From: Microtetraspora sp. NBRC 13810
GTDB taxonomy: Bacteria > Actinomycetota > Actinomycetes > Streptosporangiales > Streptosporangiaceae
DNA length: 64,000 nucleotides
Reading direction: 5' to 3'
NCBI RefSeq assembly: GCF_030268685.1
Contig: NZ_BSRQ01000001.1
Location: 310,001 to 374,000, forward strand
Numbering within the stretch: the stretch's first letter is position 1; every line of letters begins with the position of its first letter. A program made the translations under genes and the position numbers. This document shows, in pieces, positions 25,441-35,079 of the stretch. The notes under the pieces were generated by a model. The model saw only the letters and a program-made list of their open reading frames with translations, made no database searches and was not told the origin of the DNA.

Positions 25441-26556
25441 TCAGCGGCCCGGCGCGCCGCAGGAGGCGCGGACCCGCAGCTCCGGCCGCAGCAGCACGCT
25501 GCGCAGGGGCCGGTCCGGGTTGTCCAGCCGGTCCACCAGCATGCGCACGGCCTCGGCGCCCACCGCCTGCTTGGGCGGCGACACGGCGGTCAGCGGGATG
25601 TCGGCGAGCGCGGCCACCTCGTCGTCGTAGGTCGCGATCGCCAGGTCACCCGGGATCGAGATCCCGCGCGCCCGCAGACTTCTGACCAGCAGCAACGCGT
25701 CCATGTCGTTGTGCACCAGCGCGGCCGTCACGGCGCCGGTCGCGACCAGGCGCACGAAGGCGTCCACGTGCTCGTCCATCGGCACCGGGTCGTCCGCCTC
25801 GGACAGCGGGACCAGGTGCAGGTGCCCCTCGCGCAGGCCGAGGGACCGCTGGGCCCGCTCGTACCCCTCGCGGATCCACGGGGTCGTCTTGCTCTCCCTG
25901 GCGAACAGCGCCACCTGGTCGTGCCCCAGCCGGGCGAGGTGACAGGTGGCCAGGTAGGCGCCGTACCCGTGGTCGGTGGCCACCTGCTCCACCCGGTCCA
26001 CCGGCCAGCTCGACCGGCGCTCCACCAGCACCACCGGCAGGTCCAGCTCGTTCACCCACTGCTCGGTCTGCAGCGAGCGCGTCGGGTCCTCGCTCGGCGT
26101 CAGCAGCAGCCCGTCCACCCCGGAGGCCCGGAGCTGCGCCACCTGCCTGCGGTCCTCCTTCAGGTCGTACCGGGACACCGCGAGCGTAATCCTGGCCCCC
26201 AGCTCGCGGGCGACCGCCTGCGCGCCGCGGATCACCGCCGGATAGTAGTAGGCCGCCTGCGGCACCAGCATGCCCAGCACGTAAGGCTCCCGCCCGGCGG
26301 CGTCCCGCTCCGTCTCCGGCTCCGGCGCCCGCTCCCGGACGAGCTGCTCCACGGCCGCCCCGTCGCCCGAGGTCACCGGGGCCGACAGGGCGCCGCCGTG
26401 CACCCTGGTCAGCAGGCCGCGGCCGGCGAGCTCCCGCACGTCGTGCCGGATCGTGACGGCCGACACGCCCAGGCTCGCCGCCAGGTCCGCCACCCGGACC
26501 GAGCCCTTGCGGCTCAGCTCCCGCAAGATCGCCTCGTGTCGTTCCTCGGCCAGCAC
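25441..26556 (-). CDS. DeoR-type HTH / LacI-type sensor hybrid transcriptional regulator
   Basis: A 371-residue regulator. The N-terminal DeoR helix-turn-helix is RHEAILRELSRKGSVRVADLAASLGVSAVTIRHDVRELAGRGLLTRVHGG (residues 6-55). A periplasmic-binding-protein-like sensor domain of the LacI/GalR kind follows (about 85-371), with HNDMDALLLVRSLRARG and PGDLAIATYDDE. The GTG at 26556 is chosen over the ATG at 26592 because GGAAGGAG stands six bases before it. The resulting N-terminus, MLAEERHEAIL, is typical. It most likely controls the downstream sugar operon and itself, with the operon's sugar as effector. Confidence 0.92.
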   Translation of the reverse strand: MLAEERHEAILRELSRKGSVRVADLAASLGVSAVTIRHDVRELAGRGLLTRVHGGALSAPVTSGDGAAVEQLVRERAPEPETERDAAGREPYVLGMLVPQAAYYYPAVIRGAQAVARELGARITLAVSRYDLKEDRRQVAQLRASGVDGLLLTPSEDPTRSLQTEQWVNELDLPVVLVERRSSWPVDRVEQVATDHGYGAYLATCHLARLGHDQVALFARESKTTPWIREGYERAQRSLGLREGHLHLVPLSEADDPVPMDEHVDAFVRLVATGAVTAALVHNDMDALLLVRSLRARGISIPGDLAIATYDDEVAALADIPLTAVSPPKQAVGAEAVRMLVDRLDNPDRPLRSVLLRPELRVRASCGAPGR

Positions 26557-26608
26557 CCGCGGGCTCCTTCCTCGGCAAGTTTCGTTCGTCATCGTAACGG
26601 TGACGTTC

Positions 26609-26620
26609 GTTTTCGAAAAC
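26609..26620. promoter_or_regulatory. Palindrome before the sugar-operon regulator gene
   Basis: GTTTTCGAAAAC is a perfect 12-bp palindrome, 53-64 bases before the regulator's GTG, overlapping the motif TTCGTTT. It is a likely autoregulatory operator. Confidence 0.55.
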
Positions 26621-26726
26621 TGTCGCACCCGGCGCCTCCGCCGTCCGCGCCCCCGCTGAAGAGGAGTATCCCGTCAACGCCCCCCGCCGTTACCACCGTG
26701 CAGCACAGGGGACGGTTCCGTCGGCC

Positions 26727-26772: not shown

Positions 26773-27744
26773 ATGATCGAGATAGACGACGTCTTCCTGA
26801 CCCGCGCCGACGAGACCTACGCCGGGCTGCCCGTCACCCCCCTGCCCGCCTCGCCGGACAAGCGCCTCCCGCACACCGGCTCGGCGGCATGGTGGCTCAG
26901 CGGCGGCACGTGGGACGGTCACTCGCTCGACGAGTGCCTCGACCGGTTCTTCACCCGGGTGGACACCACCCGGGTCACGGCCGTCGTCGCCGGTGACTGG
27001 GGCGACTGCTACACGGAGAGCAGCAAGACGTTCGTCTCCCGGCTGGCCGCGAGCGCCGGGCGCCTTCCCGGGCTGCGCTCACTCTTCTTCGGCGCGATCA
27101 GCTCGGAGGAGGCCGAGATCTCCTGGATCCAGCAGTCCGACATCACGCCGCTGCTCACCGCCTTCCCCCGGCTGGAGCGGCTGGAGGTGCGCGGCGGCAG
27201 CGGGCTGCGGCTCAACCCGGTGCGGCACGACGCCCTGCGGATCCTGCGCGTCGAGACCGGCGGCCTGCCCGGAGAGGTCGTCCGCGCGGTCGGCGCCTGC
27301 GACCTGCCCGCGCTGGAACACCTGGAGCTGTGGCTCGGCGTCGAGGAGTACGGCGGCGACGCCACGGTGACCGACCTCGGCCCCATCCTGACCGGCGAGC
27401 GGCTGCCGTCGCTGCGCCACCTCGGCCTGCAGAACAGCGAGATCCAGGACGACATCGCCGCCGCCGCGGCCTCCGCACCCGTCGTCGCCCGGCTGGAGAG
27501 CCTCAACCTGTCCATGGGCGTCCTCACCGACACCGGAGCCGAAGCCCTCCTCAGCGGCCAGCCCCTCACCCACCTGCGCAGACTCGACCTGCACCACCAC
27601 TACCTCACCGACGCCATGATGACCCGCGTCGCCGCCGCCCTGCCCGGCGTGCACGTGGACCTGTCCGAGCAGGAGGAGCCCGACCTGGAGGACGAGGACG
27701 ACGAGGACGGCGAGGTCTGGCGTTACGTCGCGGTGAGCGAGTGA
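26773..27744 (+). CDS. STM4015 family leucine-rich-repeat protein, copy 1
   Basis: A 323-residue soluble LRR protein of the STM4015 family, whose function is unknown. Irregular repeats are visible as FPRLERLEVRG, ALRILRVETGG, LPALEHLELWLG, LPSLRHLGLQNSEIQDD, RLESLNLSMGVLTDTGAEALL and LTHLRRLDLHHHYLTD (about 130-290). The N-terminal 90 residues hold the motif ETYAGLPV. After the repeats comes an acidic stretch (about 296-315, nearly all Asp/Glu) and the tail YVAVSE. GAGGA six bases before the ATG supports the start. It opens a gene set with ATP-grasp, phosphatase-fold and radical SAM proteins and may be a scaffold or a substrate for them; that is inference. Confidence 0.88.
   Translation: MIEIDDVFLTRADETYAGLPVTPLPASPDKRLPHTGSAAWWLSGGTWDGHSLDECLDRFFTRVDTTRVTAVVAGDWGDCYTESSKTFVSRLAASAGRLPGLRSLFFGAISSEEAEISWIQQSDITPLLTAFPRLERLEVRGGSGLRLNPVRHDALRILRVETGGLPGEVVRAVGACDLPALEHLELWLGVEEYGGDATVTDLGPILTGERLPSLRHLGLQNSEIQDDIAAAAASAPVVARLESLNLSMGVLTDTGAEALLSGQPLTHLRRLDLHHHYLTDAMMTRVAAALPGVHVDLSEQEEPDLEDEDDEDGEVWRYVAVSE
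27040..27645 (+). repeat. Near-identical block shared by LRR copies 1 and 2 (copy A; copy B at about 28108-28713)
   Basis: Over about 600 bases the two LRR genes differ at only scattered positions, with a constant offset of 1068 bases (for instance CTGCGCTCACTCTTC at 27073 and 28141). The first 250-270 bases and the last 60-90 bases of each gene are clearly more divergent. The limits are approximate because the edges fade gradually. The block covers the LRR region. Confidence 0.85.
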
Positions 27745-27816
27745 GACGCCCGCCGCGAAGTGTCGGCGGCCTCTGGTAGGACATGTTCCGCCACTCCCCC
27801 AGGCGAGGATCCCCCC

Positions 27817-28785
27817 ATGATCGAGATTGAGTACGACCCGCGTCACGGCTACCAGCGTCGCTACGACGAGACCTATGCCGGGCTGCCCGTGACCCACCTT
27901 CCGGACTCCGGCGAGGAGGAGCCGCTCCCCGACCCCGGCTCGGTGGCCTGGCGGCTCACCGCGAGCGAGTGGGACGACACCGCGGACTCCACCATGGCCG
28001 AGTGCTTCGACCGCTTCCTCGGCCTCGTGGACACCGCCAAGGTGACCGCACTGGTCATCGGCGGCTGGGAGGATTCCTACGAGACCCCCTCGGATACCCT
28101 CGTCTCCCGGCTGGCCGAGAGCGCCGGGCGCCTTCCCGAGCTGCGCTCACTCTTCTTCGGCGCGATCAGCTCGGAGGAGGCCGAGATCTCCTGGATCCAG
28201 CAGTCCGACATCACCCCGCTGCTCACCGCCTTCCCCCGGCTGGAGCGGCTGGAAGTGCGCGGCGGCAGCGGGCTGCGGCTCAACCCGGTGCGGCACGACG
28301 CCCTGCGGATCCTGCGCGTCGAGACCGGCGGCCTGCCCGGAGAGGTCGTCCGCGCGATCGGCGCCTGCGACCTGCCCGCGCTGGAACACCTGGAACTGTG
28401 GCTCGGCGTCGAGAACTACGGCGGCGACACGACGACCCCGGACCTCGGCCCCATCCTGACCGGCGAGCGGCTGCCGTCGCTGCGCCACCTCGGCCTCCAG
28501 GACAGCGAGATCCAGGACGACGTCGCCGCGGCGGTGGCCGCCGCCCCGATCGTCGCCCGGCTGGAGAGCCTCAACCTGTCCATGGGCGTCCTCACCGACA
28601 CCGGCGCGGAAGCCCTCCTCAGCGGCCAGCCCCTCACCCACCTGCGCAGACTCGACCTGCACCACCACTTCCTCACCGACGCCATGATGAAGCGGGTCAC
28701 CGCCGCCCTGCCCGGCGTCGAGGTCGTCCTGTCCGACCGGCAGCGGACCGACCGCGACTGGCGCTATGTCGCGGTGAGCGAATGA
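27817..28785 (+). CDS. STM4015 family leucine-rich-repeat protein, copy 2
   Basis: A 322-residue paralogue of the preceding gene. From about residue 98 to 300 it is nearly identical to copy 1, differing at a few positions (for example VGACDLP versus IGACDLP). The N-terminus is eight residues longer and differently charged, and the C-terminal acidic linker is replaced by a short SDRQRTDRD segment. The last residues are again WRYVAVSE. AGGCGAGGA precedes the ATG. Its stop codon overlaps the start of copy 3 (ATGA). Confidence 0.88.
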   Translation: MIEIEYDPRHGYQRRYDETYAGLPVTHLPDSGEEEPLPDPGSVAWRLTASEWDDTADSTMAECFDRFLGLVDTAKVTALVIGGWEDSYETPSDTLVSRLAESAGRLPELRSLFFGAISSEEAEISWIQQSDITPLLTAFPRLERLEVRGGSGLRLNPVRHDALRILRVETGGLPGEVVRAIGACDLPALEHLELWLGVENYGGDTTTPDLGPILTGERLPSLRHLGLQDSEIQDDVAAAVAAAPIVARLESLNLSMGVLTDTGAEALLSGQPLTHLRRLDLHHHFLTDAMMKRVTAALPGVEVVLSDRQRTDRDWRYVAVSE

Positions 28786-29783
28786 TGTACGACGACCTCG
28801 AGGAGCAGTGGGAGGAGACGCCCGCCGATCCGCGCGACCCCGGCGACGCGTTCATCCCGGAGGACTCCGTCTACCGCCACGACCCCGCCGGCGCCCACCG
28901 CGAGCGCTTCGCCGGGCTGCCGATCGTGGAGCCGGGTGACCCGTGCGCCGACCCCTGGCAGGCCGCCTGGGTCCTGTGGGACGGGGCCTCGACCGACGGC
29001 GGCGCCGGGTCGTCCCTCGCCGACGATCTTTCCGAGCTGATCGGCCGGGTCGGCGGTCAGCGGATCCAGGCGATCGTCGTCGCCGGAGAGGACGCGAGCG
29101 GGGCGCCGGAGGTCCTCGCGGCGCACGCCCACCGGCTGCCCCGGCTCCGCTCGGTGTTCCTGGGATTCGTCGAGCCCGAGCACTGGGAGATCTCCTGGAT
29201 CCGGCAGGGCGACATCACCCCGCTGCTGGAGGCGTTCCCCCGGCTGGAGCGGCTGGACGTGCGCGGCTCCGACGGGCTGGTCATGCGACCGGTCCGGCAC
29301 GAGCACCTCCGTGTGCTGCGCTTCGAGTGCGGCGGGCTGCCCGCCCACGTGGTCCGCGCGGTCGGCGACTCCCACCTGCCCGGCCTGGCACACCTGGAGC
29401 TGTGGCTCGGCGTCGAGCAGTACGGCGGGGACTCGACGACCGCCGACCTGGCCGGCATCCTCGGCGGCGCCGGGCTGCCCGCGCTGAGACGGCTCGGCCT
29501 GCGCGACAGCGAGCGGCAGGACGAGATCGCCTCGGCCGTCGCCGCCGCCCCCGTGGTCGCCCGGCTGGAGGCGCTCAGCCTGGGCATGGGCGTCCTCACC
29601 GACGCCGGAGCCGAAGCCCTCCTCAGCGGGCAGCCGCTCAGCCACCTCCAGCACCTCGACCTGCACCACAACTACCTGAGCGAGGAGACCGCGGCCAGGG
29701 TCGAGAAGGCACTGCCCACGGTGACCGTCGACCTCTCCCACCGATATACGCACGACGAGTTCTATGTCGCGGTGAGCGAATGA
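28782..29783 (+). CDS. STM4015 family leucine-rich-repeat protein, copy 3 (divergent)
   Basis: A 333-residue third member of the LRR set, clearly diverged from the other two but keeping the same repeat order: FPRLERLDVRGSDGL, LRVLRFECGGLPAHVV, LPGLAHLELWLGVEQYGGD, LPALRRLGLRDSERQDE and LQHLDLHHNYLSEE. It has an acidic N-terminal extension (MMYDDLEEQWEE) not seen in the others and a second segment RFAGLPIVEPGD matching their ETYAGLPV region. It too ends in FYVAVSE. Both its start and its stop overlap neighbouring genes by four bases, so it is coupled to copy 2 and to the ATP-grasp gene. Confidence 0.88.
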   Translation: MMYDDLEEQWEETPADPRDPGDAFIPEDSVYRHDPAGAHRERFAGLPIVEPGDPCADPWQAAWVLWDGASTDGGAGSSLADDLSELIGRVGGQRIQAIVVAGEDASGAPEVLAAHAHRLPRLRSVFLGFVEPEHWEISWIRQGDITPLLEAFPRLERLDVRGSDGLVMRPVRHEHLRVLRFECGGLPAHVVRAVGDSHLPGLAHLELWLGVEQYGGDSTTADLAGILGGAGLPALRRLGLRDSERQDEIASAVAAAPVVARLEALSLGMGVLTDAGAEALLSGQPLSHLQHLDLHHNYLSEETAARVEKALPTVTVDLSHRYTHDEFYVAVSE

Positions 29784-30844
29784 CGGTGCGCTTCGCCGTC
29801 GTGGGCACGCCCGGCGACCGCCGGGTGGCGCTGTTCCGCGCCGCCGTGCTCGCCCGCGGGCTCGCGGAGCCGTCCCTCGTCTCGTGGCGGGACGTGCTGG
29901 CCGGGCGGGAGATCGGGGCGCCCGCGGGGGCGCTGCTGCGGATCGACTCGCCCGGCGAGGACGCGGAGAGCGACGCGCTGCTGCGCGGGCCCGGCGATCC
30001 GGCCCGGGTGGGCGGGGGCGCGTCGTGGTACGCCGCGTTCACGAAGGGGCTGGCGCGGGTGGCCGCGATCCCCGGCGTCGAGCTGCTCGGCGACGTCGGG
30101 GAGATCGCGGTGATGTTCGACAAGCGGAGCTGCCACGCCGTGCTCGACCGGGCCGGGGTGCCGGTGCCGCCGGCGTTCCCGGCCGGCTCGTACGACGAGC
30201 TGCGCGAGCGGATGGCGGAGCGCGGCTGGGCCAGGGTGTTCGTCAAGCCGGCGCACGGCTCGTCGGCGTCGGGGGTGGTCGCGTTCCAGGCGCACGCCGG
30301 CCGGGTCAAGGCGGTCACCTCGGCGGCCTGGCTCGACGGCGTGCTGCGCAACTCGCTGAAGCTGCGCGCCTACGAGGACGAGGAGGGCGTGCGGGCGCTG
30401 GTGGACGCGCTGGCGCCCGACGGGCTGCACGTCGAGCGGTGGTTCCCCAAGGCGTCGATCGACGGCAGGGCGTACGACCTGCGGGTCGTGACCGTGGCGG
30501 GGACGCCGACGCACGCGGTGGTCCGGGTCGGCCGCGGCCCGATGACCAACCTGCACCTCGGCGGCGAGCGCGGCGACCTCGACGTGGTCCGCTCCCGCCC
30601 GGCGCTGTGGACGCGGGTGCTGGACGCGTGCGCCGGGGCGGCGGCGTGCTTCCCCGGCAGCCTGGCCACCGGCGTGGACGTCATGGTGGGCGCCGACCTG
30701 CGGTCCGTCGCGGTGGCCGAGGTCAACGCGTTCGGCGACCTGCTGCCGGGCCTGGGCGACCTGTCGGGAAACGAACGAGACACCTACGCGGAGCAGGTGA
30801 AGGCGGTCATCGATGGACATGCACGACGTCGTGGGCAGCCATGA
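29780..30844 (+). CDS. STM4014 family ATP-grasp protein
   Basis: A 354-residue protein of the STM4014 family with an ATP-grasp fold (RimK/glutathione-synthetase kind). Visible elements are an N-terminal Rossmann-like strand VRFAVVGTPGDRR, the ATP-binding Lys in WARVFVKPAHGSSASGV (about 152-168), HVERWFPKASIDGRAYDLRVVTV (about 215-238), and the metal site VAVAEVNAFGDLLPG near 310-325. Enzymes of this fold join a carboxylate to an amine through an acyl-phosphate, so a peptide or amino-acid ligation onto a partner is plausible. No substrate is known. It overlaps the preceding LRR gene by 4 bases and the next gene by 32. Confidence 0.88.
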   Translation: MTVRFAVVGTPGDRRVALFRAAVLARGLAEPSLVSWRDVLAGREIGAPAGALLRIDSPGEDAESDALLRGPGDPARVGGGASWYAAFTKGLARVAAIPGVELLGDVGEIAVMFDKRSCHAVLDRAGVPVPPAFPAGSYDELRERMAERGWARVFVKPAHGSSASGVVAFQAHAGRVKAVTSAAWLDGVLRNSLKLRAYEDEEGVRALVDALAPDGLHVERWFPKASIDGRAYDLRVVTVAGTPTHAVVRVGRGPMTNLHLGGERGDLDVVRSRPALWTRVLDACAGAAACFPGSLATGVDVMVGADLRSVAVAEVNAFGDLLPGLGDLSGNERDTYAEQVKAVIDGHARRRGQP

Positions 30845-31604
30845 CATCCTCCTGGTCACCCTCGACACCCTCCGGTACGACGTGGCGGCGGAGATGGCCG
30901 AGGCCGGGCGGCTGACCGGGCTGCTGCCGCACGGGGGCGGCTGGGAGCGGCGGCACAGCCCCGGCAGCTTCACCTACGCCGCGCACGCCGCGATGTTCGC
31001 CGGGTTCCTGCCCACCCCGGTGACTCCCGGCCCGCATCCCCGGCTGTTCGCGGCGACCTTCCCCGGCAGCGAGACGACGGCGGGCGGCACGTGGGTGTTC
31101 GACGCCCCCGACCTGCCCACGGGGCTCGCCGGGGCGGGCTACCGGACGATCTGCGTCGGCGGCGTCGGATTCTTCAACAAGCGGACCCCGCTCGGCTCGG
31201 CGCTGCCGGGCCTGTTCGCGGAAAGCCACTGGGAGCCGGAGTTCGGCGTGACGAACCCGGCGTCGCTGGAGCGGCAGATCGACCGCGCGGCCGAGGTGCT
31301 GGCACACCGGGACGGGCCGGTCTTCCTGTTCGTCAACGTCTCGGCGCTGCACCAGCCGAACCACTTCTACCTGCCGGGCGCCACCGGTGACTCGCGGGAG
31401 AGCCACGCCGCCGCGCTGGAGTACGTCGACCGGCACATCGGCCGTCTCTACGACCTCATGCGCCGGCCCTGCCTGGTGATCGTCTGCTCCGACCACGGCA
31501 CCGCGTACGGCGAGGACGGTCACGTCGGCCACCGGATCGGTCACGAGGTCGTGTGGACGGTGCCCTACGCCGAATTCATTCTGGAGCGTCATGCGGCCCT
31601 ATGA
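30813..31604 (+). CDS. STM4013/SEN3800 family alkaline-phosphatase-fold metalloenzyme
   Basis: A 263-residue protein with the core of the alkaline phosphatase/sulfatase superfamily. The first metal ligand lies in ILLVTLDTLRYDV (Asp18). The nucleophile region is SPGSFTYAAHAAMFAGF, with a Ser/Thr instead of a formylglycine-type Cys. The second metal site is CSDHGTAYGEDGHVGHR, with Asp227, His228 and His237/His240. There is no signal peptide, unlike secreted sulfatases, so it acts in the cytosol. A phosphate, phosphonate or nucleotidyl transfer is expected; the substrate is unknown. It starts inside the ATP-grasp gene and ends 14 bases inside the next gene. Confidence 0.87.
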   Translation: MDMHDVVGSHDILLVTLDTLRYDVAAEMAEAGRLTGLLPHGGGWERRHSPGSFTYAAHAAMFAGFLPTPVTPGPHPRLFAATFPGSETTAGGTWVFDAPDLPTGLAGAGYRTICVGGVGFFNKRTPLGSALPGLFAESHWEPEFGVTNPASLERQIDRAAEVLAHRDGPVFLFVNVSALHQPNHFYLPGATGDSRESHAAALEYVDRHIGRLYDLMRRPCLVIVCSDHGTAYGEDGHVGHRIGHEVVWTVPYAEFILERHAAL

Positions 31605-32856
31605 GGGATATGTCTACGCCTACCCGCACAAGACGGCCTACCGGCCGCTCGATCCGCGCCCGCCGTTGCGGGACGTGTGGGCCGGTGAGCGGGCGGGCGC
31701 ACTGTACGTGCACATCCCGTTCTGCGAGATGCGCTGCGGGTTCTGCAACCTGTTCACCCGCACCGGCGCGCCCGAGGAGCTCGTCGGCGGCTACCTCGAC
31801 GCCCTCGAACGGCAGGCCCGCGCCGTGCGGGAGGCGCTGGAGGCCCCGGCGTTCAGCACCGCCGCGTTCGGCGGCGGCACGCCCACCTATCTCAGCGCGG
31901 GCGAGCTGACCCGGCTGTTCGACCTGACCGAGCGCACGATGGGCGCCGACCTCGCCGCGATCCCGCTGTCCGTGGAGACCTCACCCGCCACCGCCACCCC
32001 CGACCGCCTCGCCGTGCTCGCCGAGCGCGGCACCACCCGGGTCTCCATCGGCGTGCAGAGCTTCGTCGACGCCGAGGCCAGGTCCGCCGTGCGCCCGCAG
32101 CGGCGCGCCGAGGTGGACGCGGCCCTCGACGCGATCCGCGCGGCCGGAATCCCGGCGCTCAACATCGACCTGATCTACGGGATCGACGGCCAGACCCCCG
32201 CCTCCTGGCGGTACTCGCTGGACACCGCGCTCACCTGGAAACCGGAGGAGCTGTACCTCTACCCGCTCTACGTCCGCCCGCTGACCGGCCTCGGCAAGCA
32301 GGGCCGGGCCTGGGACGACCAGCGGCTGGAGCTGTACCGTCTCGGCCGCGACCACCTCCTCGCGGCGGGCTACGAGCAGGTGTCCATGCGGATGTTCCGG
32401 CTGCCCGGCTCGGGCTCGTCCACCGAATACTGCTGCCAGACCGACGGCATGGTCGGCCTCGGCTGCGGCGCCCGGTCCTACACGAGCACGCTGCACTACT
32501 CCTTCGAGTACGCCGTGGGCGCGCGCCAGGTGCGGTCGATCATCGACGACTACGTGCGGCGGACCGACTTCGGCACGGCGAACGTCGGGTTCACCCTCTC
32601 CCCCGGGGAGAGCAGGCGGCGGCACCTGATCCAGTCGCTGCTCCAGGCCGAGGGGCTGTCCCGGGCGCTCTACCGCGACCGGTTCGGCGCCGACGTGCTG
32701 GACGACTTCCCACTGGAACGCTTCGCCGACCTGCTGGTCGTGGAGCCGTCGGCGATCAGGCTGACCGCCGAGGGCCTCGCCCACTCCGACGCGATCGGCC
32801 CGGCGTTGTTCTCCGACCGGGTCCGGGGCCTCATGGACGGGTACGCGGCATGCTGA
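31591..32856 (+). CDS. STM4012 family radical SAM protein (HemW/HemN-like)
   Basis: A 421-residue radical SAM enzyme. The cluster motif CEMRCGFC (Cys45, Cys49, Cys52) is preceded by ALYVHIPF exactly as in HemN/HemW coproporphyrinogen-oxidase-like proteins. GGGTPTYL and VETSPAT follow, and IGVQSF is the family's strand 5 motif. The C-terminal quarter (about 320-400) resembles the HemN C-terminal helical domain. True HemW is normally encoded next to chaperone genes; here it sits with STM4011 and STM4013, so a heme role is doubtful. A CC pair (TEYCCQTD) near 280 could bind a metal or ligand. Confidence 0.9.
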   Translation: MRPYEGYVYAYPHKTAYRPLDPRPPLRDVWAGERAGALYVHIPFCEMRCGFCNLFTRTGAPEELVGGYLDALERQARAVREALEAPAFSTAAFGGGTPTYLSAGELTRLFDLTERTMGADLAAIPLSVETSPATATPDRLAVLAERGTTRVSIGVQSFVDAEARSAVRPQRRAEVDAALDAIRAAGIPALNIDLIYGIDGQTPASWRYSLDTALTWKPEELYLYPLYVRPLTGLGKQGRAWDDQRLELYRLGRDHLLAAGYEQVSMRMFRLPGSGSSTEYCCQTDGMVGLGCGARSYTSTLHYSFEYAVGARQVRSIIDDYVRRTDFGTANVGFTLSPGESRRRHLIQSLLQAEGLSRALYRDRFGADVLDDFPLERFADLLVVEPSAIRLTAEGLAHSDAIGPALFSDRVRGLMDGYAAC

Positions 32857-33680
32857 CCATCCTCTATCGCGGCCCGCTGGCGAGCTGCGACTACGACTGC
32901 GCCTACTGCCCCTTCGCCAAGCGGCGGGACTCCCCCGAGCGGCTCCGGGCCGACCGGGCCGCGCTGGAGCGCTTCACCGCCTGGGTCACCGCCCAGGACT
33001 TCGAGGTGTCCGTGCTGTTCACCCCGTGGGGCGAGGCGCTGGTCCGATCCTGGTACCGCAGGGCCGTCGTGGACCTGTCCTGGGCGCCGAACGTGCGCAG
33101 GGTGGCGGTCCAGACGAACCTCAGCCACCGCACCGGGTGGCTCGCCTCGGCGTCGGACCGGGCCGCCCTCTGGGTGACCTACCACCCCACCCAGGTGCCC
33201 TATGACCGTTTCCTGGCGAAGGTCCGCTCCCTACCGGTACGGCACAGCGTCGGCATCGTGGGCGACCCGGCCCATCTGGCCGACGCCCGGCGGCTGCGGG
33301 CCGACCTGCCCGCCGAGACCTACCTGTGGGTCAACGCCGAGGAGGGCCGCCTCTACACCGACGCGGAAGCGGCCGAGTGGTCCGCGATCGACCCGCTCTT
33401 CCACCACAGCCGCTTCCCGCATCCCAGCGCCGGCCTGCCCTGCCGCACCGGGGACAGTGTGATCTCGGTGAACGGCGACGGCACGGTCCGCCGCTGCCAC
33501 TTCATCCCCGAGGAGCTGGGCAACCTCTACGACGGCTCCTACCGCCGGGAGCTGCGCCCGCGCCCCTGCCCGGCCGCCGCCTGCGACTGCCACATCGGCT
33601 ACGTCCACCTGGAGCCCACCGGCCTCTACCCCGTCTTCGCCGGCGGCATCCTCGAACGCGTCCCCGCCGCCTGGCCGTAG
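32850..33680 (+). CDS. STM4011 family radical SAM protein with C-terminal Cys cluster
   Basis: A 276-residue radical SAM enzyme. CDYDCAYC (Cys13, Cys17, Cys20) binds the catalytic [4Fe-4S] cluster very near the N-terminus. The barrel segment LFTPWGEALV corresponds to the usual GGEP region. Five further cysteines (198, 216, 240, 245, 247) lie in DGTVRRCHFIPEELGNLY and CPAAACDCHIGY. They recall SPASM/twitch auxiliary clusters of peptide-modifying maturases, so a protein or peptide substrate is possible. It overlaps STM4012 by seven bases and is last in the set; the next gene is convergent. Confidence 0.9.
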   Translation: MLTILYRGPLASCDYDCAYCPFAKRRDSPERLRADRAALERFTAWVTAQDFEVSVLFTPWGEALVRSWYRRAVVDLSWAPNVRRVAVQTNLSHRTGWLASASDRAALWVTYHPTQVPYDRFLAKVRSLPVRHSVGIVGDPAHLADARRLRADLPAETYLWVNAEEGRLYTDAEAAEWSAIDPLFHHSRFPHPSAGLPCRTGDSVISVNGDGTVRRCHFIPEELGNLYDGSYRRELRPRPCPAAACDCHIGYVHLEPTGLYPVFAGGILERVPAAWP

Positions 33681-33706: not shown

Positions 33707-34783
33707 TCAGGTCTCGCGCTGGGGGTGGTAGTCGCCCTCGGTCATGCCGAAGGTCCAGGCGACGCCCTCGCGCGCCCGGCGCACCCACGGCGGCACCCGC
33801 AGGAAGTAGGTGCGGCTGGTGCCGTCGGGCTCGGGTGTCGAGTTGACCACCTCGACCATCACCAGCGGCTCGTCACCGGGCAGCTCGATCCGCCACAGCA
33901 CGCCCGTCTCGTCGGACTGCTGCGCCTCGGCCCCCGACTCCGCGAGGTAGCGGTCGAAACCGAAGTGCTCCAGCATCACCCGGCGCAGCTCGGCGTTCTC
34001 CTCCTCGCGGATGCGGGACGGGGTGAGCGCGGTCATCGCGGCCCCGAAGTCGGCCGGGACCGGCATCCCGTGCCAGGCGTGCAACGCGAACCCGTCGGAG
34101 AACGCCATGGCGGGCCCGTCGCCCCGGTGCAGCCGCCCGGCGTCGTCCCGGTGCAGCTCGACGGGCCGCTCGGTGACGATGGCGACCCGCTCGTAGGGCC
34201 ACCACCAGCCCGCGCCTCCGGCGACCTGCCTGAGGCCCGCCAGCCCGTCGGACCCGTCGAAGGCCGACAGCCACGGGGCGTCGTGCTGGCCGAGGACCGC
34301 GTCCAGGGTCAGCCGCCGCAGCTCCTCGCCGCCGAGGTCGGCGACGGCCCGGCGGATCGCGGTGACCAGCCGGTCCACCTGCGGCCACAACCGGCCGCCG
34401 GTCTCCGCCCACTGGGCCGCCCAGCCGGCCGGCCCCAGCTCCGCGTACGCCGCCCGCCGCGCCCGCTCCCACGGTGCGGTCCTGACGTCGTCACGCACGG
34501 ACCGCCCCGGCTCCACCCCGTCGAACAGCGCGGCCAGGCCGGCGGCGGTCTCCGCCGGCCCGCCCAGGCCGGCCGCGCGGAGGCCGTCCTCGACGGCCCT
34601 GCGCAGGTCGTCGTCCCCGGTCAGCCACGCCGCCGCCGCCGCGCCCGCCGCCGGCGAGCCCAGCACGACCACCCGCTCCGGCCCGGCCAGCCCCGCGTCC
34701 CGGTAGGCCCGCCGCACGCCCGCCTCGACGTCATCCGCCGGACCGGTCGCGAAGGCCGTCTGCTCCCACGTCAGCGTCGCCAT
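33707..34783 (-). CDS. DUF6745 domain-containing protein
   Basis: A 358-residue protein with no signal or membrane segment, matching the actinobacterial DUF6745 type. The N-terminal half is helical and Ala/Trp-rich (GWAAQWAETGGRLWPQVD). The middle holds WWWPYERVAIVTERPVELHRDDAGRLHRGDGPAM. The C-terminal portion has HAWHGMPVP and the segment MEVVNSTPEPDGTSRTYFLRVPP. Its function is unknown. ATG 34783 shares its A with the stop of the small gene upstream (TGATG), so the two proteins are made together. Confidence 0.8.
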   Translation of the reverse strand: MATLTWEQTAFATGPADDVEAGVRRAYRDAGLAGPERVVVLGSPAAGAAAAAWLTGDDDLRRAVEDGLRAAGLGGPAETAAGLAALFDGVEPGRSVRDDVRTAPWERARRAAYAELGPAGWAAQWAETGGRLWPQVDRLVTAIRRAVADLGGEELRRLTLDAVLGQHDAPWLSAFDGSDGLAGLRQVAGGAGWWWPYERVAIVTERPVELHRDDAGRLHRGDGPAMAFSDGFALHAWHGMPVPADFGAAMTALTPSRIREEENAELRRVMLEHFGFDRYLAESGAEAQQSDETGVLWRIELPGDEPLVMVEVVNSTPEPDGTSRTYFLRVPPWVRRAREGVAWTFGMTEGDYHPQRET

Positions 34784-35079
34784 CAGTCGGCCACCACCCG
34801 GAACGACCCCGGCACGTATTCCCGCTGCCGGACCACGCGATACCACCCCTTGGGCAGCGAGATCGCGTCATGCTCCTCGTGCACGAGCCTGCCGCCCTCG
34901 GGCAGGTGCAGGAACCCGCCGGCCAGCGTGCCCGGCCCGGGAATCGCGTGACAGTGCCCGGTCGCCTCGCCGTGCGCCAGCACCAGCCGACCGCGCGCGT
35001 CACGCTCCTCCGGCCGCAGCCCGCCCGGCACGGCCTCCTCGGCCACCGGCACGATCAGAATGTCGCCCTGTCGGTACAT
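34783..35079 (-). CDS. Small conserved protein paired with DUF6745
   Basis: A 98-residue soluble protein beginning MYRQGDILIVPVAE, with GHCHAIPGPG and EEHDAISLPKGWYRVVRQREY. It looks like a compact beta-barrel, with several His residues (EATGHCHAI) that could bind a metal. GGAGGT lies seven bases before the ATG. It overlaps the DUF6745 gene by one base, which suggests the two act together. I do not recognise a named function. Confidence 0.8.
   Translation of the reverse strand: MYRQGDILIVPVAEEAVPGGLRPEERDARGRLVLAHGEATGHCHAIPGPGTLAGGFLHLPEGGRLVHEEHDAISLPKGWYRVVRQREYVPGSFRVVAD

Follow-up and report, generated by a model that had tools for sequence, protein, structure and literature searches.

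A conserved C-terminal glutamate in the STM4015-family LRR proteins of an ATP-grasp and radical SAM gene cassette from Microtetraspora sp. NBRC 13810

Genes of the cassette

The window analysed here is a 64,000-nucleotide stretch of the 9.0 Mb genome of Microtetraspora sp. NBRC 13810 (contig NZ_BSRQ01000001.1, positions 310,001 to 374,000), and positions below are counted from its first letter. Between 26773 and 33680 seven open reading frames on the + strand encode three leucine-rich-repeat (LRR) proteins of the STM4015 family, followed by the ATP-grasp ligase STM4014, the hydrolase STM4013 and the radical S-adenosylmethionine (SAM) enzymes STM4012 and STM4011. The C-terminal glutamate of STM4015 and its relation to the ligase encoded next to it are the main subject of this report. 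All seven proteins exceed the NCBIfam cut-offs of the five families (275 bits for NF038076, the STM4015 model). From STM4015 copy 2 onward the genes overlap by 4, 4, 32, 14 and 7 bases, and 72 bases lie between copies 1 and 2. This agrees with a preliminary description of the window, which had reported seven genes in one direction with overlaps of 4-32 bases. The seven genes indeed occupy the span given there, but the unit does not end at 33680: it also takes in a convergent DUF6745 gene and a small gene, which carry it to 35079.

26773..27744, + strand: STM4015 family LRR protein, copy 1 (NF038076, 392.5 bits; tail ...WRYVAVSE-COOH)
27817..28785, + strand: STM4015 family LRR protein, copy 2 (NF038076, 394.2 bits; tail ...WRYVAVSE-COOH)
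28782..29783, + strand: STM4015 family LRR protein, copy 3 (NF038076, 317.3 bits; tail ...FYVAVSE-COOH)
29780..30844, + strand: STM4014 ATP-grasp ligase (NF038074, 395.7 bits; AlphaFold2 model nearest to ArgX/RimK/LysX)
30813..31604, + strand: STM4013 hydrolase of the alkaline-phosphatase superfamily, Thr nucleophile proposed (NF038075, 402.1 bits; PF00884, 46.2 bits)
31591..32856, + strand: STM4012 HemN-like radical SAM enzyme (NF006067, 616.9 bits)
32850..33680, + strand: STM4011 radical SAM enzyme with five extra invariant Cys in its C-terminal third (NF038073, 365.7 bits)
33707..34783, - strand: DUF6745 protein, convergent accessory gene (PF20530, 351.2 bits)
34783..35079, - strand: small protein of 98 amino acids (MYRQGDILI...HEEH...REYVP...VVAD), upstream of and touching the DUF6745 gene; the start codon is our choice

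Matches to STM4015 and STM4011 in the window's own genome are confined to this cassette, and Rfam models at their gathering thresholds gave zero matches over the whole window. The five families are already named in NCBIfam, and the structure of a Bacteroides STM4015 homologue is available (PDB entry 2ra8, B. fragilis Q64V53; E = 2.7e-42), in which it is recorded as an uncharacterised protein. In line with the preliminary description, which knew of no assigned function for the set, none was found for the five families or for DUF6745 in the open-access literature, which leaves out most subscription papers, and the code 2RA8 was not found there. An earlier description could be contained in an older review on operons with ATP-grasp amidoligases. 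Excerpts of the Salmonella literature tabulate STM4015 as a hypothetical protein among genes with serotype-specific selection signals, and give STM4013.S as a sigma54 binding site inside the gene.

The C-terminus of STM4015 and its tie to STM4014

Our main set consists of 80 genome-contig loci, the best 80 of at least 564 confirmed relatives of a Deinococcus STM4013, and eight plasmid loci, giving 88 loci to which the window was added. Closed STM4015 frames above 60 bits from this material (set 1, n = 124) end in glutamate in 120 cases, spread over ten phyla, and each of the 75 sources with a closed frame above 100 bits has at least one Glu-ended copy. Among the frames without Glu, that of L081 (61 bits) resembles the shadow of a neighbouring frame. 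For the unit's six other families a terminal Glu is seen in 3 of 388 proteins. Set 2, drawn from genomes picked for remote or numerous STM4015 copies, has 44 rows, six of which repeat L081 including its shadow frame; Glu ends 43 of the 44 and all 38 of the new ones, 22 of which come from stretches that lack cassette enzymes altogether. As a number of these contigs are short, the distance to a cassette is not fixed for every orphan copy. In set 3 (12 rows, one repeating L104) the counts are 12 of 12 and, for new rows, 11 of 11.

The terminal codon is GAG in 67 and GAA in 53 cases and all three stop codons are used; selection therefore acts on the residue. An origin of the glutamate as a by-product of ATGA start-stop overlaps is ruled out by the use of both codons and three stops and by its presence in copies without cassette enzymes. 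The residue follows an acidic linker of variable length, with an Asp+Glu fraction of 0.35 at positions -25 to -9 compared with 0.15 for the whole open frame (upstream in-frame extension counted). In set 1 the tail mostly reads R-[YF]-x-[AS]-[VLI]-[SGAT]-E, and 96 of the 124 frames have Arg at -7 and 113 have Tyr/Phe at -6; in set 2 Tyr is commoner than Arg at -7 (25 vs 11 of 44). Examples of tail ends are MNAMYTE in Salmonella, YYPMITE in Bacteroides and RYPSLTE in Paenibacillus. Retention of a terminal acid in spite of a drifting linker would be expected of a substrate or carrier site. A fixed Tyr-Glu cross-link like that of pyrroloquinoline quinone is not favoured, since Tyr/Phe at -6 is absent from 11 of the 124 tails, including those of Methylobacterium and Salmonella.

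At the other end of the protein, an N-terminal WGR domain is fused to STM4015 in five of the nine proteins scanned (Bacteroides, myxobacteria and Rhodocyclaceae):

L044, 6630-7700: WGR-STM4015 fusion
L084, 9504-10925: WGR-STM4015 fusion
L089, 11918-13345: WGR-STM4015 fusion
L106, 2641-3708: WGR-STM4015 fusion
L160, 1501-2937: WGR-STM4015 fusion

Around orphan STM4015 genes in six stretches, where neighbours were called with a crude gene caller, no shared enzyme was recognised. Directly downstream of the orphan copies at L131:1487-4834 and L133:1395-2582 lies, in both stretches, a small gene ending KMLVERIKKENG.

The cassette behaves as two modules, STM4015-STM4014 and STM4013-STM4012-STM4011, which are split or inverted in L076, L084, L086, L089, L095, L098, L101 and L122. 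Upstream of 74 of the 76 STM4014 genes above 140 bits, a same-strand STM4015 is found within 300 bases; in the two exceptions the gap is 899 bases (L070) or the locus ends beside STM4014 (L110). When the genomes of 11 genome-contig loci without a visible STM4014 were searched, the gene was present in seven, in each case apart from STM4013-STM4012-STM4011 but about 100 bases or less from an STM4015. STM4014 is thus tied more tightly to STM4015 than to the rest of the cassette. The copy numbers differ: STM4015 gives one to eight matches per genome and STM4014 a single one, with two exceptions.

Counting each family at more than 140 bits, all five occur together in the window and in 67 of the 88 loci. 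The remaining 21 are incomplete: some run into the end of a contig or locus, some are split, and seven hold a solo STM4013 or nearly so. The four families other than STM4012 were also searched for in 121 genomes of the window's own order, which are mutually non-independent. STM4014 and STM4015 are found in the identical 69 genomes. STM4013 passes its cut-off in 70 genomes, these 69 and G257, and STM4011 at E = 1e-15 likewise in 70, the 69 and a partial match in G282, with the copy of G259 being a fragment under the cut-off. Weak STM4013-like paralogues (<140 bits) turned up in ten places in this search. Given this co-occurrence and the 67 complete loci, the grouping is not due to chance, and the families are not scattered among genomes, which the preliminary description had named as the pattern that would speak against its system.

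The ten phyla are Actinomycetota, Pseudomonadota, Myxococcota, Planctomycetota, Cyanobacteriota, Chloroflexota, Bacteroidota, Acidobacteriota, Deinococcota and Bacillota, the last with a plasmid copy, so that the earlier view of a self-contained block present across distant phyla holds. Presence is patchy, as STM4014 passes the cut-off in five of 198 genomes of a phylum-wide sample, the window's own counted. Transferability, also proposed earlier, is supported by plasmid copies of the cassette but is weaker than stated: a tree of 75 STM4012 rows is mostly grouped by phylum, with 12 label changes where the minimum possible is eight. The window's STM4012 is closest to those of Nonomuraea and Microbispora in this tree.

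A few loci depart from the common layout. STM4013-like hydrolases without a nearby cassette are found at L049:7980-8774 and L050:7977-8786 and in L054, L063 and L114, for example on plasmids of Streptomyces albidoflavus and Kitasatospora; the solo gene of L049 is followed by a NUDIX gene. In the plasmid cassette of Bacteroides finegoldii (L044, 8689-10644) STM4013 gives a short match only and STM4012 was not found, and an enlarged STM4011 frame adjoins. The cyanobacterial locus L092 has three STM4015 copies, and STM4011 was not found within the 16.8 kb examined.

Partner enzymes and accessory genes

STM4014 has 18 invariant residues, including Lys115, Lys156, Arg249, Asn257, Asp300, Glu314 and Asn316, which we take to fit an active ATP-grasp enzyme. 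Its profile gives five matches below 0.01 in the PDB, all of them LysX or RimK (1uc8 with 4.9e-4, 1uc9, 3vpd, 5zct and 4iwx). The AlphaFold2 model (58 sequences) has a predicted local distance difference test score (pLDDT) of 96.1. Its top Foldseek match is ArgX in complex with LysW (PDB entry 3vpb; 3.8e-13), and VIA ranks one to eight are all ArgX, RimK or LysX, with Z scores of 24.7-23.4 and root-mean-square deviations of 2.6-3.0 over 268-274 residues. RimK (Z 23.9), also as its complex with RpsF, is within this top group. Likeness of a predicted fold alone is no proof of function.

In STM4011 the three radical SAM cysteines and Cys198, Cys216, Cys240, Cys245 and Cys247 are invariant (57 sequences). 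Its model (pLDDT 93.6) lies near SkfB, anSME, EpeE, SuiB and PqqE, with SkfB being the nearest in Foldseek (3.5e-6); VIA places BlsE first (Z 15.7), tied with SkfB (15.0). The STM4012 profile aligns to HemN over nearly its full length (1.2e-58), but with TIGR00538, the HemN family model, it scores 113.4 bits, under the cut-off of 324.95, which leaves it outside HemN proper. Its invariant Arg295 occupies the position of HemN Ile329, a residue with a role in binding the second SAM, and the region that holds this SAM in HemN is different in STM4012. Besides HemN itself, STM4012 can be compared with HemN-like methyltransferases such as NocN.

STM4013 is a 263-residue alkaline-phosphatase-superfamily domain in which Asp18, Thr54, Asp227, His228 and His244 are invariant (42 sequences). 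This pattern would point to Thr as the nucleophile and to chemistry on phosphoesters or related groups. In some loci a HAD-type gene lies between STM4014 and STM4013: seven such gap genes were judged to be HAD hydrolases by eye (L058, L071, L106, L107, L111, L117 and L127), two of which were checked with NCBIfam, and annotated HAD genes adjoin the Salmonella and Deinococcus cassettes. The gap genes of L052, L061, L064 and the cyanobacterial loci are of other kinds. STM4013 and the occasional HAD gene hint at a phosphorylated intermediate. Taken as a whole, the enzymes support peptide- or protein-modifying chemistry, where the preliminary description had suggested a peptide- or cofactor-modifying pathway.

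The DUF6745 and small genes were located with profiles built from seven seed sets. DUF6745 exceeds 140 bits in 33 of the 68 sources that have the complete core set of five families (the window and 67 loci), and in the planctomycete loci L076, L086 and L122 the small-DUF6745 pair lies upstream of STM4013-STM4012-STM4011 in the same direction. Strong matches (>300 bits) occur in 42 of the 121 genomes of the order, exclusively cassette-bearing ones, and by listed coordinates lie within about 4 kb of STM4011, except in G291, where they are on another contig. Weaker paralogues are found away from cassettes. DUF6745 ends in YxPxx[EQ]T (Tyr and Pro in 34 of 34, Thr in 33 of 34), and the small protein ends in Asp in 34 of 34. 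Both were considered as extra tail substrates and set aside. Of nine off-cassette stretches, six matched the DUF6745 profile built here above 50 bits and three did not, and the six off-cassette DUF6745 paralogues likewise end in Thr. The conserved end may therefore only mean that the domain reaches the terminus. In Deinococcus (L047:12007-13008, - strand) and Methylobacterium (L046:5748-6770) the N-terminal half of DUF6745 reads as LRR-like, unlike that of the window's protein.

Upstream of the cassette and divergent from it, a regulator of the DeoR-type helix-turn-helix/LacI-type sugar-binding kind (25441-26628, - strand) lies near transporter-like genes and is probably unrelated.

Possible roles of STM4015

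LysX joins α-aminoadipate to the γ-carboxyl of the C-terminal Glu of LysW, in an EDWGE motif, and ArgW of Natrinema ends in ...LEEDWGE, with an acidic stretch, a Trp and a C-terminal Glu (excerpts of PMC10433800). STM4015 resembles these carriers in ending in an acidic stretch and a C-terminal Glu, and LysX and ArgX are among the nearest folds to the STM4014 model. Ribosomal protein S6 is extended with Glu residues by RimK; the excerpts available of the paper describing this mention no LRR, WGR or radical SAM protein (PMC4431377). The STM4014 model resembles RimK, an ATP-grasp ligase by which Glu is added to the C-terminus of a protein, but the proposed target is another one and radical SAM enzymes accompany STM4014.

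We consider it slightly more likely than not that STM4014 ligates a substrate to the C-terminal Glu of STM4015, and that radical and phosphohydrolase steps follow. STM4015 would then be a carrier or substrate whose folded LRR body is joined through the acidic linker to a C-terminal peptide, with the last Glu as the attachment site. STM4014, an amide ligase of ArgX/LysX/RimK shape, would use ATP to activate a carboxylate and attach an amine-bearing substrate to the Glu. The tethered group or the tail itself could subsequently be transformed by the SPASM/twitch-like STM4011, the HemN-like STM4012, STM4013 and sometimes a HAD phosphatase, and the outcome may be either a released small molecule or a lastingly modified protein. 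The several LRR copies would represent several versions of the carrier. By analogy, STM4015 and STM4014 would work like LysW and LysX. This assignment rests on the terminal Glu, on the amplification of STM4015 compared with mostly single-copy enzymes and on the adjoining ligase of ArgX/LysX/RimK shape. The LRR protein, taken in the preliminary description for a scaffold, is for these reasons probably the modified party. Two points led us to set an inert scaffold aside: the feature that varies least at the terminus is a free Glu, which follows a variable linker, and amplification affects STM4015 rather than the enzymes.

A number of observations weigh against such a ligation. Frames of STM4015 in L065, L090 and L092 look real and lack the Glu, each beside intact copies. 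Genome searches of the metagenome-assembled genomes L054, L063 and L114 gave neither STM4014 nor STM4015, though STM4013 is present, and that of L099 gave two STM4015 matches and no STM4014. In sequence STM4014 resembles LysX/RimK only weakly. Its top fold group is followed at a distance of just 0.6-2.6 Z by glutathione synthetase (Z 22.8) and DcsG (22.1), and its first Foldseek matches include PsnB, a graspetide ligase. STM4015 has no LysW fold, and no LysZ/Y/J/K-like gene is present among the seven window proteins or named in six annotated cassette loci, other flanks being unscanned. There is no indication for any amine substrate, and the conserved C-terminus could serve as a docking or recognition signal.

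PsnB also enters an alternative in which the cassette resembles systems for ribosomally synthesized and post-translationally modified peptides (RiPPs): the STM4015 tail would be the core and the LRR body the leader, STM4014 would make a lactam or ester in the tail, and STM4011 and STM4012 would cross-link or cleave it, the product perhaps being excised. The modelled fold and the extra cysteines of STM4011 are compatible with the maturases SkfB, SuiB, PqqE and EpeE, and its model is also close to anSME; the amplification of STM4015, with copies apart from the enzymes, is precursor-like, and an aromatic residue stands at -6 in most tails. We nevertheless regard this alternative as rather unlikely. 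The terminal Glu is the one near-invariant position, the -6 aromatic being missing in Methylobacterium and Salmonella, and -2 varies between Ser, Gly, Ala and Thr, so that a fixed cross-link pair is not seen. RiPP precursors are short leader-core peptides, whereas the body of STM4015 is a folded LRR domain with a length of about 300 residues; no search was aimed at a separate short precursor gene. The gap genes that were read included no recognisable protease, with flanks not systematically clustered, and BlsE, which has the highest Z in VIA, tied with SkfB, is a non-RiPP enzyme. Alternatively, the C-terminal peptide would serve as a motif for recognition, and STM4015 would act as an adaptor whose LRR surface directs the enzymes to another substrate. 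LRR bodies usually bind other proteins, the WGR fusions fit an adaptor, and the copies vary in sequence and number. Docking would not require anything as specific as a single free C-terminal acid next to a ligase with fold relatives that act on such a residue, however, and the company of STM4015 is kept by STM4014 but not necessarily by the other enzymes; a docking role is unlikely in our estimate.

The presence of RimK and its RpsF complex in the top fold group would also agree with a regulatory tag, in which STM4014 reversibly adds amino acids to STM4015, tuning an LRR regulator, and the hydrolases take the tag off. The acceptor of RimK is the terminal Glu of S6. Such regulation leaves the two radical SAM enzymes of the 67 five-family loci unexplained and seems improbable. 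Anti-phage defence with LRR sensors, which multi-copy LRR proteins, plasmid copies and patchy presence might bring to mind, is very improbable: PADLOC (2023 library, E 0.01) gave no match for eight of nine proteins and one weak match for STM4012 (22.9 bits), and no effector-like domain was recognised in Pfam scans.

Compared with LysW, which has a short Zn-binding fold with Cys pairs, the LRR proteins of a carrier system based on STM4014 and STM4015 would be folded domains of about 300 residues or more in one to eight copies per genome, with two radical SAM proteins and phosphohydrolases as partners. Because the carrier fold differs, STM4015 stands outside the LysW family. Tentatively, and at less than even chance in our judgement, the cassette may represent a new class of carrier-protein biosynthesis in ten bacterial phyla, in which a substrate is held on the C-terminal Glu of an LRR protein and a new cofactor, metabolite or protein modification is made there by phosphohydrolases and two radical SAM enzymes.

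The five families are widespread and yet bear only locus-tag names. What was previously just a list of enzyme classes now has, in the C-terminal Glu, a precise and cheap experimental entry. If the proposed ligation is correct, the carrier-protein logic of lysine and arginine biosynthesis would also apply to radical reactions with an LRR protein as carrier, and a product of the cassette would become findable.

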